From positions 1,349,001 through 1,413,000 of the forward strand of contig NZ_CP062222.1 in assembly GCF_017487405.1 (NCBI RefSeq): a DNA stretch of 64,000 bases, written 5' to 3'. The notes beneath the pieces are model-generated. The model made no database searches, was not told the origin of the DNA, and saw only the letters and a list, made by a program, of their open reading frames with translations. A program made the position numbers and the translations under genes. Every line of letters starts with the position of its first letter. The stretch's first letter is position 1. This document shows, in pieces, positions 26,637 through 44,497 of the stretch. The DNA is from Brevundimonas goettingensis (GTDB lineage Bacteria; Pseudomonadota; Alphaproteobacteria; Caulobacterales; Caulobacteraceae).

Positions 26637-26709
26637 CCCCGGCTTTGGGCGCTTGAGATCGCTCCCACGATCATGTGAAGTCCCGGCGCAGTCAGCAGGG
26701 AGAGTCGTC

Positions 26710-29055
26710 ATGGTGCGTCGGATGGTGGCGATGGTCCTCTCGGCGGCGCTCGCCGTCGGGCCCGGCGGTCTCGCGGTGGCCCAGACCGCGGCCGTTCCCT
26801 TCCCCTATGACGCCGTCGATCCCTTCATCGGCACCTCGGGTCAGGGCCACACCTTCCCCGGCGCCGTCGCCCCCTTCGGCATGGTCCAGCTCAGCCCCGA
26901 CACCGAGCACAAGGTGCTGCGTCAGGGCTATGACTGGGCCTCGGGCTATCGGTACGACGACCCGACCATCCTCGGCTTCTCCCACACCCATTTCTCGGGC
27001 TCGGGCCACTCCGACCTCGGCGACGTCCTGCTGACGCCGCTCGGCGCCGGCGAGATCAAGCTGGAGCCGGGCGACGCCGCGACCCCCGGCTCCGGCTACC
27101 GCTCCCGCTACGACAAGGCCTCCGAGGTCGCCGAGCCCGGCTATTACGCGGTCAACCTGACGGACTCAGGCGTCCGCGCCGAGCTGACGGCGGGCACCCG
27201 CGTCGGCATGCACCGCTACCAGTTCGCGGCCGGCGCCCCGGCCCGGGTCCTGCTCGACTTCCGCCCCTCCATCTACGACTACCCGGACAAGGTCTCTTGG
27301 TCGCGCATCCGCGTCGCGGCCGACGGCACGGTCACCGGCTATCGCGAGACGCGCGGTTGGGCGCCCGGCCGTCAGCTCTATTTCGCCATGCGCTTCTCGA
27401 AGCCGATGGTCAGCCGCTCGATCCAGAACCGCGAGGAGAATGTCACCTACAACGGCTTCACCAAGCCCGGCCGCACGCCCGGGGATCGCGATCAGGTCGA
27501 AGGCCGCGCGCTCGAGGCCGTCTTCGACTTCGGTCCGATCGAGGCCCCCCTGATCGTCAAGGTCGCCCTGTCCGGCGTCGATGAGGCCGGCGCCATCAAG
27601 AACCTCGACAGCGAGGGCGGCGACTTCGATTTCAACGGCTTGCGCGCCTCAACGAAAGCGCAGTGGGAACAGGCGCTCGGCGCCGTCCAGATCGACGCCC
27701 CCGCCGAGATGCGCACCACCCTCTACACCGCCCTATATCACTCGCTGATGGCCCCCAGTGTCATGGGCGACGTCGACGGTCGTTATCGCGGGCCCGATCA
27801 AGCCGTGCACGCGGCCGAGGGCTTCACCTTCCATTCGACCTTCTCCCTGTGGGACACCTTCCGCGCCGAGCACCCGCTGCTGACGCTGGTCCAGCCGGAA
27901 GCGCGCAACGCCGACATGATCAACTCCCTGATCGCATCCCAGCAGCACAGCCCCTATGGCCTGCTGCCGGTCTGGCAGTTCGCGGGTCAGGAGACCTGGA
28001 CCATGATCGGCTATCACGCCGTTCCGGTCATCGCCGACGCCTGGATGAAGGGCATCCGCGGCTTCGACGGCGTGGCGGCGCTGAAGGCCATGGTCGCCAG
28101 CGCCACCTACCGCCCCTACGGTGGCCTCGGCGACTATATGGACCTCGGTTACGTCCCCATCGACCGGGAGCCGGAGGCGGCCTCCAAGACCGTCGAATAC
28201 GCCTATGACGACTGGACCATCGCCCGCATGGCCCGCAACCTGGGCCATGCCGACATCGCCGAGACCTTCGAGAAGCGCGCGCAGAACTGGCGCAACAGCT
28301 TCGACCGGGAGACCGGCTTCCTGCGCGCCCGCAAGGCGGACGGGACCTACCGCACCCCCTTCGATCCCACCGCCATCAACTACGGATCCGACTACACCGA
28401 GGGCAATGCCTGGCAGTATTCGTGGTTCGCGCCCCAGGATCTCGGCGGCATCGTCGGGGCCATGGGCGGGGACGCCGCCACCGTCGCCAAGCTGGACGCC
28501 ATGTTCGACTTCGACAATTCGAAGCTCGACTACTCCCACGCCGAGGACATCGCCGGCCTGATCGGCCAGTACATCCACGGCAACGAACCCAGCCATCACT
28601 CGGCATACATGTACGTCTACGCGGGCGCCCCGTGGCGCACCCAGGCCCGGCTGAAGCAGATCGTCGACAGCCAGTACCACGCCCGTCCCGACGGCCTCGC
28701 CGGCAACGACGACCTGGGCCAGATGTCGGCCTGGCTGGTGTTCACGGGGCTGGGCTTCTATCCGGTCACGCCGGGCAGCAACCAGTATGTGATCGGGCGG
28801 CCTTTCGTGGATCGCGCCGTGCTGAACCTCCCGAACGGCAAGACCTTCATCATCGTCACCGACGGCCTGTCCGACGCCCGGCCCTACATCGCGTCAGTAT
28901 CGCTGAACGGCCGCCCCCTCACCCGCAGCTGGATCGGCGATGACGAAATCCGCGCCGGCGGCGAACTGAGGTTTGTCATGAGCGCGCGGCCGAACCGGAG
29001 CTGGGGTTCTGGGGCGGCGGCAAGGCCGTATTCGATGACGGGTTTCGGGCGGTAG
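26710..29055 (+). CDS. GH92-family alpha-mannosidase
   Basis: A 781-residue exported protein (signal peptide about 1-24, AVA-Q) matching the GH92 alpha-mannosidase pattern throughout. The pieces seen are VDPFIGTSGQGHTFPGAVAPFGMVQLSPDT, GFSHTHFSGSGHSDLGDVLL, SPYGLLPVWQFAGQETWTMIGYHAVPVIADAW, and GNEPSHHSAYMYVYAG with the family's Ca2+/catalytic region. GH92 enzymes are calcium-dependent, inverting exo-mannosidases acting on alpha-1,2, -1,3 or -1,4 mannosides of N-glycans or yeast mannan. AGGGAGAG at 26697-26704 precedes the ATG 26710. It is 73 bases after the amidohydrolase stop and is followed by repeat elements. Confidence 0.95.
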   Translation: MVRRMVAMVLSAALAVGPGGLAVAQTAAVPFPYDAVDPFIGTSGQGHTFPGAVAPFGMVQLSPDTEHKVLRQGYDWASGYRYDDPTILGFSHTHFSGSGHSDLGDVLLTPLGAGEIKLEPGDAATPGSGYRSRYDKASEVAEPGYYAVNLTDSGVRAELTAGTRVGMHRYQFAAGAPARVLLDFRPSIYDYPDKVSWSRIRVAADGTVTGYRETRGWAPGRQLYFAMRFSKPMVSRSIQNREENVTYNGFTKPGRTPGDRDQVEGRALEAVFDFGPIEAPLIVKVALSGVDEAGAIKNLDSEGGDFDFNGLRASTKAQWEQALGAVQIDAPAEMRTTLYTALYHSLMAPSVMGDVDGRYRGPDQAVHAAEGFTFHSTFSLWDTFRAEHPLLTLVQPEARNADMINSLIASQQHSPYGLLPVWQFAGQETWTMIGYHAVPVIADAWMKGIRGFDGVAALKAMVASATYRPYGGLGDYMDLGYVPIDREPEAASKTVEYAYDDWTIARMARNLGHADIAETFEKRAQNWRNSFDRETGFLRARKADGTYRTPFDPTAINYGSDYTEGNAWQYSWFAPQDLGGIVGAMGGDAATVAKLDAMFDFDNSKLDYSHAEDIAGLIGQYIHGNEPSHHSAYMYVYAGAPWRTQARLKQIVDSQYHARPDGLAGNDDLGQMSAWLVFTGLGFYPVTPGSNQYVIGRPFVDRAVLNLPNGKTFIIVTDGLSDARPYIASVSLNGRPLTRSWIGDDEIRAGGELRFVMSARPNRSWGSGAAARPYSMTGFGR

Positions 29056-29062
29056 GCGCAGC

Positions 29063-29126
29063 GTCGCCCTCTCCTGGTTGCTTCGCAACCTGCCCTCTCC
29101 ATCGCCCTCCGGCGATGGAGAGGTGA
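29063..29126 (+). repeat. Palindromic repeat R1 (forward)
   Basis: A 64-base element: GTCGCCCTCTCCTG, a small hairpin, CTGCCCTCTCCATCGCC, then GGCGATGGAGAGGTGA. Almost identical to the copy at 29604-29673 except in the variable hairpin. It starts seven bases after the GH92 stop and is followed nine bases later by an inverted copy. Confidence 0.85.
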
Positions 29127-29135
29127 CGCCGCCGT

Positions 29136-29199
29136 TCACCTCTCCATTCGCGAAGGCGAATGGGGAGGACAGACCGCGAAGCGGTCAGGAGGGGGCGAC
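29136..29199 (-). repeat. Palindromic repeat R2 (reverse)
   Basis: The same element in inverse orientation, ending GGAGGGGGCGAC at 29199. Its inner edge overlaps the last codons and TGA of the DUF559 gene (minus strand). With R3 it flanks that gene as an inverted pair with the GTCGCC ends pointing inward. Confidence 0.85.
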
Positions 29200-29568
29200 A
29201 CCGTGATAGCCGGGAGGAACCCGCTCCCGCACAGACCGCTGGATGAAGTCCATCCCCCCCTCGATCTCGTCGCGCACATCCGAAGCCCGTAGCCGGATCA
29301 CCCGGATGCCCTGCGTCGCCAGCCACGCCGTCCGTCGCCGGTCATGGGCGATCCGCTCCGGCGCATCATGTGAGGCCCCATCCACCTCGATCGCCAGCTT
29401 CACCCAAGCACAATAGAAGTCGAGGATGTAGGGCCCGACCGGGTGCTGGCGGCGAAACTTGACGCCGTTCAATCGCTTGCCGCGCAGCCGCGTCCACAGC
29501 CGCGCCTCCGGCGGCGTCATCACACGCCGGAAGACCTTGGCTCGCGTACAGCTGATCCCGTCAGGCAT
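29185..29568 (-). CDS. DUF559 endonuclease-like protein in a repeat-flanked cassette
   Basis: A 127-residue protein of the DUF559 family (Vsr-like/PD-(D/E)XK nuclease fold): TPPEARLWTRLRGKRLNGVKFRRQHPVGPYILDFYCAWVKLAIEVDG then H67. The putative catalytic residues Glu21, Asp50, Glu61, Asp63 are all present. The start at the ATG complement of 29566-29568 gives normal family length, but the frame stays open up to an ATG inside repeat R3 (29649). The C-terminus VAPS and TGA are encoded by the conserved edge of repeat R2. No clear ribosome-binding site. It lies between two mannosidase genes, suggesting later insertion. Biochemical function is unknown for this family. Confidence 0.85.
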   Translation of the reverse strand: MPDGISCTRAKVFRRVMTPPEARLWTRLRGKRLNGVKFRRQHPVGPYILDFYCAWVKLAIEVDGASHDAPERIAHDRRRTAWLATQGIRVIRLRASDVRDEIEGGMDFIQRSVRERVPPGYHGVAPS

Positions 29569-29603
29569 TATGCAACTATGGAGTGCAATTTGGCCGACGT
29601 CGA

Positions 29604-29673
29604 GTCGCCCTCTCCTGATCGTCGCTGCGCGCCGATCTGTCCTCTCCATCGCCCTCCGGCGATGGAGAGGTGA
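29604..29673 (+). repeat. Palindromic repeat R3 (forward)
   Basis: A 70-base copy with the same ends as R1 (GTCGCCCTCTCCTG ... GGCGATGGAGAGGTGA) and a different central hairpin (ATCGTCGCTGCGCGCCGAT). It lies between the DUF559 start and the GH47 stop. Confidence 0.85.
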
Positions 29674-29679
29674 ACGCCC

Positions 29680-31071
29680 CTAGGCCGTCCTGAATCCTCT
29701 GAGCACATTCGCCTCCGTGCTCAGCTGGAGCCGACCGTAGTCCACGCGCTTCGCGTCGGCGAACAGCAGGTAGTAGTATTTCATCTGCTCGGACCACCAG
29801 TAGCCGGGGCAGTTGTCGCCCTGCTCCATCGGGCGGGTGGTGATGTCCTTGAGCGAGGTGTAGCCGAAGGCCGCCTTCGAGGTGGTCTTCATGTTGCGAT
29901 AGTGGATGGCGGCGAGGCCCCGATACCGGTCGTCGCGGTCACCAAGCCACAGGTTCAGGCAGGCGTCGGCGAACTCGGGGCGCAGGCCGGTGCGTTTTGA
30001 CCGCGCCGTGCCGGTGGTCACATCCGTGCTCTCGGGGATGATGACGTACTTCTCCTGCATGGCGGTGTAGGTCGCCAGGAAGTCGTCACCGGCGGCCTTC
30101 AGCCCCACCTGCCCCAGCAGCCCGGCCAGATAGGCCCCCAGAACCGTCTGGGACGTGCTGGTCACCGCCCCGGTCTCATAATCCACCATGGGGAACCACA
30201 GCTTGCCGTCGTAGCGATGGCCCTGATGGGCGACCATGGCGGCCATGCATTCCTGCGCCGCCGTCTTCATCTCCGCGTCGCCGAACATCTCCCAGCTGTC
30301 CCAGAGGTATTCGTAGAAGCTGTCCGCATAGACGTCGATCGAGGCGTTGCGGCTGGTGAATTTACCGGTCTCCGCATGGATGTTCGCCGCCATCAGGCCA
30401 AGCGGCGAGCGCATGTCCAGCGCATGCTTCATCGCCCGTTTGGCGGCGGCGTAATAGCGGTCGTCGCCGGTCAGCTGGCCCAGCAGGCCGAACTCGGTCG
30501 CATAGGTGCCGATCTCTGCGAGGTTGGTCTCGGGATCGCGCACCGCGCCCGTTTTCAGGTTCACATAGCGATACGGCAGGCCGTGCGGCGAGGCGTCGAA
30601 GGCCTTCATCAACCGGTCGGCCAGATCCTTCGCCTTGGCCAGCAGCACCGGATCGCCGCAGGCCAGATGGGCCGACAGCAGGCCGCCGACCAGACGGATA
30701 TTGGTCTCGAACACCTGGGCCTCGCCATCGATGTCGAAGTCGAGGTTGGCCTTGACCCAGTCGACCCCGGCCCGGAACTCGTCGTCCAGCTCCATGATCC
30801 ACAGGGTGTCCAGGGCCTCGACCAGCGACAGGCCCAGATCATGCCCCTCGATGAAGAAGGACTGGCTGGTGCCTGAGACCGGATTGATCTCGTCCTTGCC
30901 CCAGGCCTTTTCGACATAGTGGCCCCAGGCCCATTTGAACTCGGACTTCACATCGGCGCCGAGCGCGGCCCAATCTTCGGAAGGGGCTCGCTGTCGGGCG
31001 AAGGCCGGCGTCGCGGCGGCGGCGGTCATCAGGGCCAGGGTCGAGCGGCGGGACAGGGTGCGCTGAATCAT
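29680..31071 (-). CDS. GH47-family alpha-1,2-mannosidase, Tat-exported
   Basis: A 463-residue protein with a twin-arginine signal (SRRSTLALMTAAAATPAFA), so it is folded before export to the periplasm. The mature part matches GH47: FKWAWGHYVEKAWGKDEINPVSG, LVEALDTLWIMELDDEF, FETNIRLVGGLLSAHLACGD, GLLAA-like GLMAANIH, RPEFADACLNLWLGDRDDRY and a terminal LSTEANVLRGF whose Thr-Glu is the calcium-binding end of the family. GH47 hydrolyses alpha-1,2 mannosides with inversion. The family is mainly eukaryotic; a bacterial member from Caulobacter sp. K31 has been characterised. It faces GH92 across the DUF559 cassette, and both enzymes attack the same glycans. Confidence 0.93.
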   Translation of the reverse strand: MIQRTLSRRSTLALMTAAAATPAFARQRAPSEDWAALGADVKSEFKWAWGHYVEKAWGKDEINPVSGTSQSFFIEGHDLGLSLVEALDTLWIMELDDEFRAGVDWVKANLDFDIDGEAQVFETNIRLVGGLLSAHLACGDPVLLAKAKDLADRLMKAFDASPHGLPYRYVNLKTGAVRDPETNLAEIGTYATEFGLLGQLTGDDRYYAAAKRAMKHALDMRSPLGLMAANIHAETGKFTSRNASIDVYADSFYEYLWDSWEMFGDAEMKTAAQECMAAMVAHQGHRYDGKLWFPMVDYETGAVTSTSQTVLGAYLAGLLGQVGLKAAGDDFLATYTAMQEKYVIIPESTDVTTGTARSKRTGLRPEFADACLNLWLGDRDDRYRGLAAIHYRNMKTTSKAAFGYTSLKDITTRPMEQGDNCPGYWWSEQMKYYYLLFADAKRVDYGRLQLSTEANVLRGFRTA

Positions 31072-31154
31072 GCGTCCATGCTCTGTCAAAGCATCGATGC
31101 TGGCTAGCGCTGATACACTGCTGCCCCCAGCCCCCGGAACAACACACGCCAAAT

Positions 31155-31291
31155 CCGTCATCCTCGGGCTTGTCCCGAGGACCCATCGTTCAGCGGACGC
31201 GGGCTGTGGTCTGGATCGGCGATTGTGGAATAGCGGATCAGGACCGCGCGGAACTCGCCATGGATCCTCGGGACGAGCCCGAGGATGACGG
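31155..31291. repeat. 32-base imperfect inverted repeat
   Basis: The arm at 31155-31186 pairs with 31260-31291 as reverse complement with two mismatches, separated by 73 bases. Each arm carries its own palindrome (CCTCGGG-cttgt-CCCGAGG). Same architecture as the repeat after lpdA but a different sequence family. It fills the gap between the GH47 start and a small membrane protein gene. Confidence 0.8.
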
Positions 31292-44330: not shown

Positions 44331-44400
44331 TCACCTCTCCATTCGCGAAGGCGAATGGAGAGGACAGATCGGAGCGCAGCGACGATCAGGTAAGGGCTAC
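44331..44400 (-). repeat. Palindromic repeat R4 (reverse)
   Basis: A 70-base copy of the same family as R1-R3, reverse orientation, starting TCACCTCTCCATTCGC and ending CAGGTAAGGGCTAC (degenerate at the inner edge). Begins two bases after the trpC stop. Confidence 0.8.
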
Positions 44401-44433
44401 ACCGTATTGAAAATCGCTCACCGGAAACATCGC

Positions 44434-44497
44434 GTCGCCCCCTCCTGATCGCTGCGCGATCTGTCCTCCCCACGCACCTCCGCGCGTCGGGAGGTGA
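44434..44497 (+). repeat. Palindromic repeat R5 (forward)
   Basis: A 64-base copy in forward orientation, starting GTCGCCCCCTCCTG and ending GGGAGGTGA, with an altered distal palindrome. With R4 it forms the same inward-facing pair as R2/R3, but only a 33-base spacer (44401-44433) lies between them. Confidence 0.75.

Follow-up and report, generated by a model that had tools for sequence, protein, structure and literature searches.

A DUF559 nuclease gene bracketed by inward-facing two-hairpin repeats in Brevundimonas goettingensis is a candidate mobile cassette

Introduction

In REP/RAYT systems (REPtrons and REPINs), a gene lies between short palindromic repeats, gene-less inward-facing pairs occur elsewhere in the genome, the repeat type is specific to the enzyme lineage, and several types can be found side by side in one genome. 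The locus described here shares this organization but differs in its enzyme, a PD-(D/E)XK DUF559 protein rather than the HUH/Y1 tyrosine transposase RAYT, and in its repeats, which are built of two hairpins, have GTCGCC or purine edges and lack the GTAG tag. It also has terminal inverted repeats, as do TIR transposons and MITEs.

Two other classes of bacterial hairpin repeat are relevant. PIT/TM intrastrand-triplex motifs (described by Hoyne et al., cited by Holder 2015, PMC4666352) consist of a pyrimidine stem, a purine stem and a second purine block, occur in many bacteria, including E. coli K-12, and form inverted pairs with high copy numbers in some genomes (PMC4666352). The repeats examined here are alike in these respects but have an extra linker hairpin in types A, B and D and bracket DUF559 genes, whereas the E. 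coli motif was reported, in the available sections of PMC4666352, without association to transposons, phages or plasmids. CGTC-tagged REPs, known from five phyla, are stated not to be associated with transposase genes in the available sections of PMC3733652. They are a separate repeat family from those at DUF559 genes, with a different nuclease fold beside them, and their description fits the hairpin repeats that we found around GIY-YIG genes, with a TGTC/CGTC-like edge and a CCA tail. Within those same sections, no enzyme is linked to PIT/TM motifs in PMC4666352 or to CGTC REPs in PMC3733652; in the open-access PMC literature, judged partly from best-ranked matches, neither a DUF559-PIT/TM link nor a GIY-YIG-CGTC REP link is reported.

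The E. coli DUF559 member YcjD has been assigned to the PD-(D/E)XK superfamily, and its profile retrieves Vsr (PMC1189080, in the part available). Caulobacter VsrA, a DUF559 protein, is required for the DNA damage response of methyltransferase-lacking cells (PMC12907096, in the part available), and therefore at least one DUF559 member appears to act on chromosomal DNA. Vsr/YcjD/DUF559 nucleases (PDB 3hrl), and possibly 3r3p-type homing endonucleases, are of the same family or superfamily as the protein studied here, with D, ExD and H conserved in DUF559. Unlike them, the cassette has no intron or target gene and carries hairpin repeats around the gene.

The DUF559 gene and its repeats

We analysed 64,000 nucleotides of Brevundimonas goettingensis (GCF_017487405.1, NZ_CP062222.1; positions 1,349,001 to 1,413,000 of the forward strand, C1:1349001-1413000, in a one-contig genome of 3.98 Mb), hereafter the window. 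A sequence-only reading had placed a DUF559 gene (29185..29568, minus strand, 127 aa) between inverse copies of one repeat, R2 downstream (29136..29199, minus, 64 nt) and R3 upstream (29604..29673, plus, 70 nt), with their GTCGCC edges facing inward toward the gene and a third copy, R1, outside (29063..29126, plus, 64 nt). We confirmed these coordinates and orientations. The whole cassette, R3 at the 5′ side of the gene and R2 at the 3′ side, occupies 29136..29673 on the minus strand. It is intergenic and not within an intron, intein or conserved target gene, and the mannosidase genes proposed on both sides are a GH92 gene on the left (26653..29055, plus; PF07971 and PF17678) and a GH47 gene on the right (29680..31161, minus; PF01532).

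The protein read from 29185-29649 (minus strand) matched PF04480 at 105.7 bits in a Pfam search (gathering cut-off 20.6); its Pfam matches were DUF559 and MTES_1575 only, with no HUH/Y1 tyrosine transposase domain. Its best named homologues were Brevundimonas proteins, and the nearest solved structure by sequence was PDB 3hrl (E = 1.5 × 10−18). The PD-(D/E)XK-type residues had been described as intact, and D50, E61, D63 and H67 (127-aa protein numbering) were invariant across 45 aligned DUF559 sequences, 44 of them picked from 120 listed homologues. Median dN/dS was 0.115 over 70 pairs with shared ancestry, indicating purifying selection. The gene's final four codons, VAPS, and its stop lie in the inner edge of R2, as had been read; homologues P0002-P0005 terminate in VAPS or VAPT, and the stop codon fell inside the downstream arm in 35 of the 61 genus cassettes that were bracketed and had an ATG called as start. 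The frame also stays open into R3, as had been read, but the five best homologues are 127 aa long, which agrees with Met at 29568 as the start, and the extension is therefore incidental. R3 lies just 35 nt from the start codon (29568-29603), with a TATA-like CATAGT near the ATG, and a leaderless promoter within this part of the cassette is possible from the sequence.

From its outer end, each repeat unit, 64-70 nt long and with conserved edges, runs CCTCTCC, hairpin, GGAGAGG, second hairpin, GGAGRGGGCGAC; the repeat edges are GTCGCC and GGTGA. Two hairpins form in the fold of each of R1, R2 and R3 (z −6.2 to −6.8). Of the paired cells in 13 genomic copies, 95.6% were standard pairs, compared to 37-48% paired in slid controls, and two-sided (compensatory) changes occurred in 8 of 18 pairs, neither value being reached in 500 shuffles; the number of further pair types, one of five measures, showed no excess in these copies (10 vs. 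11.0 in shuffles). The pattern GTCGCCCYCTCCTG occurred nine times in the genome, three of these in this region, and its reverse did not occur. Allowing up to three mismatches, the 14-base edge by itself had 26 matches in the window, no clear excess over chance (shuffle mean 16.5, with 26 reached in 5 of 100 shuffles). The pyrimidine stem, purine stem and second purine block were present in repeat types A, B and C, as read by eye.

A genome search with R3 as query returned 17 hits: 13 units of at least 64 nt, one of 59 nt, one of 33 nt and two antisense self-matches. Ten of the 13 units made up five gene-less pairs, every pair with its edges inward and composed of a longer unit (66-70 nt matched) and a shorter one (64-65 nt), like R3 and R2. 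One of these pairs of the same repeat family lies inside the window at 44331-44497, with its left unit at 44331..44400 (minus; C1:1393331-1393400) and its right unit at 44434..44497 (plus). Since the gene-less pairs are built like R3 and R2, the cassette looks like a pair whose spacer has been swapped for a gene.

Brackets at DUF559 genes

All three DUF559 genes in this genome were bracketed, by two different repeat types, and DUF559 was present in 94 of 101 genus genomes at 1-9 copies each. The sequence-only reading had proposed counting the DUF559 genes that lie between inward-facing repeats. With a bracket defined as an inverted repeat score of at least 20, 84 of 115 full-length genus genes with enough flank were bracketed by long inverted hairpin repeats, compared to 1 of 5339 control windows, where control windows overlap and genus loci share ancestry. 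The sole hit in this control set was a TM-type bracket in L223 (~1500-2500), around sequence with neither a DUF559 nor a GIY-YIG gene. In newly drawn regions from the genus list, 16 of 20 DUF559 genes were bracketed, as were 3 of 6720 windows, those three at one other DUF559 gene. Among other Pseudomonadota (class and phylum loci), brackets were found at 32 of 57 genes; an earlier count over largely the same loci, leaving out two truncated ones, gave 30 of 56 compared to 3 of 728 control windows. The 115 and 57 loci exclude 6 of 178 domain hits (the window duplicate L002, loci less than 250 nt from an end and repeats of one sequence) and are the best listed matches ranked by E-value, such that weak copies are under-represented. 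No bracket was found at the cut-off for 31 of the 115 genus genes and 25 of the 57 class and phylum genes. Because brackets are far commoner at DUF559 genes than in control windows, we rejected a chance association.

An open scan of 36,365 overlapping windows at five spacings gave 14 hits at eight sites. One was the DUF559 gene of L039, which had been left unmasked, and another was a GIY-YIG gene with an arm as in L162; two were TM-type brackets, in L223 and L062, that enclose sequence with no nuclease gene, and four were weak GC-rich sites. We also scored 21 named loci, comprising 10 plasmid-collection records, two from E. coli, one from N. gonorrhoeae and eight from a genome-contig scan. Twelve were bracketed at a score of at least 20, including two Deinococcus loci and one Muribaculaceae MAG (Bacteroidota), and control windows scored above 20 in two of the 21 (L191, 28; L336, 26). 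No bracket reached the cut-off at ycjD in either E. coli locus or at the N. gonorrhoeae gene. In Deinococcus psychrotolerans (L335), the bracketed DUF559 gene sits within the paa operon, between paaD and paaZ.

Repeat type and nuclease phylogeny

Repeat type tracks the nuclease clade and not the genome. Typing with regular expressions that we wrote assigned 96 genus cassettes to five repeat types, with 19 of the 115 loci untyped and omitted from the type tests, and one locus that fitted both B and D set to B. Type changed six times on the nuclease tree (Fitch), compared to a mean of 36.8 and a minimum of 31 in 1000 shuffles, and type was correlated with nuclease identity (Mantel r = 0.465, P = 0.001). 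Pairs from different genomes shared a type in 92% of cases at 0.6-0.7 identity and in 100% at 0.7 or above, while pairs within a genome shared one in none of 2 below 0.4 identity, 32% of 22 at 0.4-0.5, 14% of 7 at 0.5-0.6 and 33% of 3 at 0.6-0.7. Among typed pairs with identity of at least 0.6 and no collinear flanks, 509 of 540 had the same type, on a looser flank test that misses rearranged flanks. Shared locus ancestry as the sole cause of matching repeats is made unlikely by pairs lacking common flanks.

These patterns bear on the view that DUF559 serves the cell in Vsr-like repair or restriction, as a small gene that spreads horizontally, and that the hairpins around it act only as terminators or insulators. 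Such a host function would fit the purifying selection seen here and the VsrA requirement in Caulobacter (PMC12907096, in the part available), and in Enterobacter 638 similar hairpins have been interpreted as terminators (PMC2869309, in the part available). Terminator use nevertheless leaves the clade-specific repeats, their inward orientation and the rarity of brackets elsewhere unexplained, and earlier work cited in the available sections of PMC4666352 found neither promoter nor terminator activity for PIT/TM motifs. We consider the host-function explanation very unlikely.

DUF559 and repeats were also linked at the genome level. Of 249 phylum genomes, 62 had a strong DUF559 gene (E below 1e-10), and 46 of these carried at least five TM hairpins, compared to 11 of the 187 others; none of 20,000 family-stratified permutations reached the observed link (13 families with both kinds, 124 genomes, with genomes holding only weak DUF559 matches treated as negatives). 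Yet 16 of the 62 strong-DUF559 genomes had fewer than five TM hairpins, and seven DUF559-negative genus genomes kept 0-40 type-A hairpins, modestly fewer than the others (median 16 vs. 24, one-sided P = 0.04), which disfavors strict dependence of the repeats on DUF559. Persistence of repeats in these genus members, together with the existence of some repeat-rich genomes lacking a strong DUF559 gene, would be expected if a RAYT, an IS200-type transposase or general recombination moved the repeats and DUF559 were captured cargo. Random cargo would not, however, have repeat types that follow its phylogeny, and in the regions scanned few brackets lie anywhere but at DUF559 and GIY-YIG genes; we give the cargo explanation little credence.

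Movement, empty sites and filled sites

Movement of the cassette is supported by comparisons of flanking sequence. A first tally of 127 moved pairs was too generous, since it missed rearranged flanks, and several high-identity pairs initially scored as moved turned out to have rearranged common flanks; we replaced it with a wider test. This test drew on 83 loci with long flanking sequence and on 122 pairs of at least 0.70 identity, of which 69 had no common flank within 3 kb. In the pair L197 and L051, homology spans −114 to 390, which are exactly the limits of the arms.

A comparison with orthologous sites lacking the cassette had also been proposed, and such sites exist. Both flanks of the window junction were present in 11 of 16 fetched loci. 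Two of these 11 (L128 and L131) were clean, repeat-free empty sites, L125 and L129 had a lone outer hairpin, L126 had a GIY-YIG gene between other hairpins (L126:1002-1511) and six had other sequence. At the L062 site, we read 30 of 99 matching genomes. Six carried one DUF559 cassette and four a different one (G001 assigned by similar ends), five had a gene-less type-D pair, two a gene-less mixed pair, four a spacer and nine other sequence, the last with gaps of more than 330 nt read at their ends only. The spacer, found in four close relatives, is 127-130 nt long and has no TM repeats but a terminator-like hairpin of a different sequence, and the DNA on either side of it is 93-99% identical to that around a filled site.

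Such sites speak to whether the repeats travel with the gene or are its target, in that a free-standing homing-type DUF559 gene could invade existing repeat pairs spread by something else. The protein has weak sequence matches to PDB 3r3p, an I-Bth0305I-like mobile-intron endonuclease (E = 0.043), and to a homing endonuclease (HEase) model (E = 2 × 10−4). Gene-less pairs have the cassette architecture with a short spacer where the gene would be, and one site holds gene-less pairs or cassettes in different genomes, as homing would predict. Against this, the alternatives at the window site (L128 and L131) are repeat-free and the four close relatives at the L062 site have no TM repeats. Moreover, the outer loops of both arms were identical in 22 of 38 type-A/A′ cassettes, a figure with no chance baseline behind it, and this would be expected if the arms travel with the gene. 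Homing into repeats is improbable in our judgment, if less so than the host-function and cargo explanations.

None of the indels read could be shown to carry a target-site duplication. A 9-nt overlap in three comparisons was ruled out as a target duplication; it is the outer stem CCTTCTCCC itself and is therefore read as a deletion between short direct repeats. The symmetric outer hairpins that stand alone at orthologous sites (L125, L129 and L043:10339-10347) look like decay products of repeat pairs that arose by this kind of deletion. A fresh identical copy within one genome was not found, the best within-genome pair being 88% identical in DNA and 1.2 kb apart, and in four genomes, with ~100-120 kb of syntenic sequence apiece, a single TM-pair indel was seen. 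At L235:4444-4550, a 105-nt hairpin pair stands in place of 9 nt of an apparent coding region in L254, which would preserve the frame and is possibly an in-gene repeat insertion.

The E. coli gene ycjD offers a related case. It is a DUF559 gene between sapF and fabI with TM motifs on its 3′ side (L189 and L190, 4920-5560) but, unlike the cassette, no inverted bracket at the cut-off, and is probably a decayed cassette. At least 80% of the queried ycjD region was present in 3362 of 5426 E. coli genomes, and ycjD was truncated in two strains. E. coli failed as a source of empty sites, two ycjD-less strains having efflux genes at the position.

A nuclease-repeat cassette

The sequence-only reading had likened gene plus repeats to a REP/RAYT- or TIR-like unit, and this is supported by bracket enrichment, sites lacking the cassette and the clade-linked repeat type. 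The cassette is most likely a REP/RAYT-like unit with an unrelated nuclease. We moderately favor the more specific reading that R3-DUF559-R2 is a mobile cassette, that its nuclease is the dedicated partner of the two-hairpin repeat and that the gene-less pairs are non-autonomous, MITE- or REPIN-like derivatives. DUF559 genes are associated with the repeats in a clade-specific manner; that the protein recognizes and nicks them, and that they are then copied, is what we infer. The PD-(D/E)XK enzyme, related to Vsr and possibly to homing endonucleases, would recognize the repeat in its folded form, probably as a single strand at replication forks, and nick it at or near its edge, after which host repair or recombination would copy the bracketed segment into a new intergenic site. 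Gene-less pairs could arise by internal deletion and be moved in trans, and a deletion running from one outer stem to the other, between their short direct repeats, may leave the lone outer hairpins.

If correct, such cassettes would add homing-type nucleases to the known routes of bacterial repeat spread. The large DUF559 family, for which Vsr-like repair has been proposed in Caulobacter, would gain a second role, and the instability of TM loci between strains would have a possible reason. Recurrence of nuclease-repeat pairing in many bacteria suggests that the DUF559 family helps to spread a widespread repeat class with no known spreader.

A parallel GIY-YIG system

Nuclease-repeat pairing runs through Pseudomonadota and beyond, and GIY-YIG nucleases are a parallel system. 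Among the best-scoring loci of our searches, single-domain GIY-YIG genes were bracketed at 20 of 25 untruncated loci in the genus (five truncated loci left out; control 0 of 300) and at 12 of 25 class-wide (four left out; control 0 of 600). We put at about even the chance of the general statement that small stand-alone nucleases spread bacterial hairpin repeats, DUF559 acting on PIT/TM motifs and single-domain GIY-YIG on CGTC REPs, each with bracketed autonomous cassettes and gene-less satellites; these would make up a class of minimal mobile elements with homing-type nucleases instead of a transposase. It would supply a concrete enzyme for PIT/TM motifs and for CGTC REPs, so that the origin of both becomes testable. 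Inverted CGTC/TGTC-type hairpin brackets were seen at L151-L180, L342-L370 and L126:1002-1511, the last at the junction orthologous to that of the window. Many of the repeats flanking GIY-YIG genes have CTC/GTCATCC-like edges and CCCAG tails, features that fit the description of CGTC REPs in the available sections of PMC3733652.
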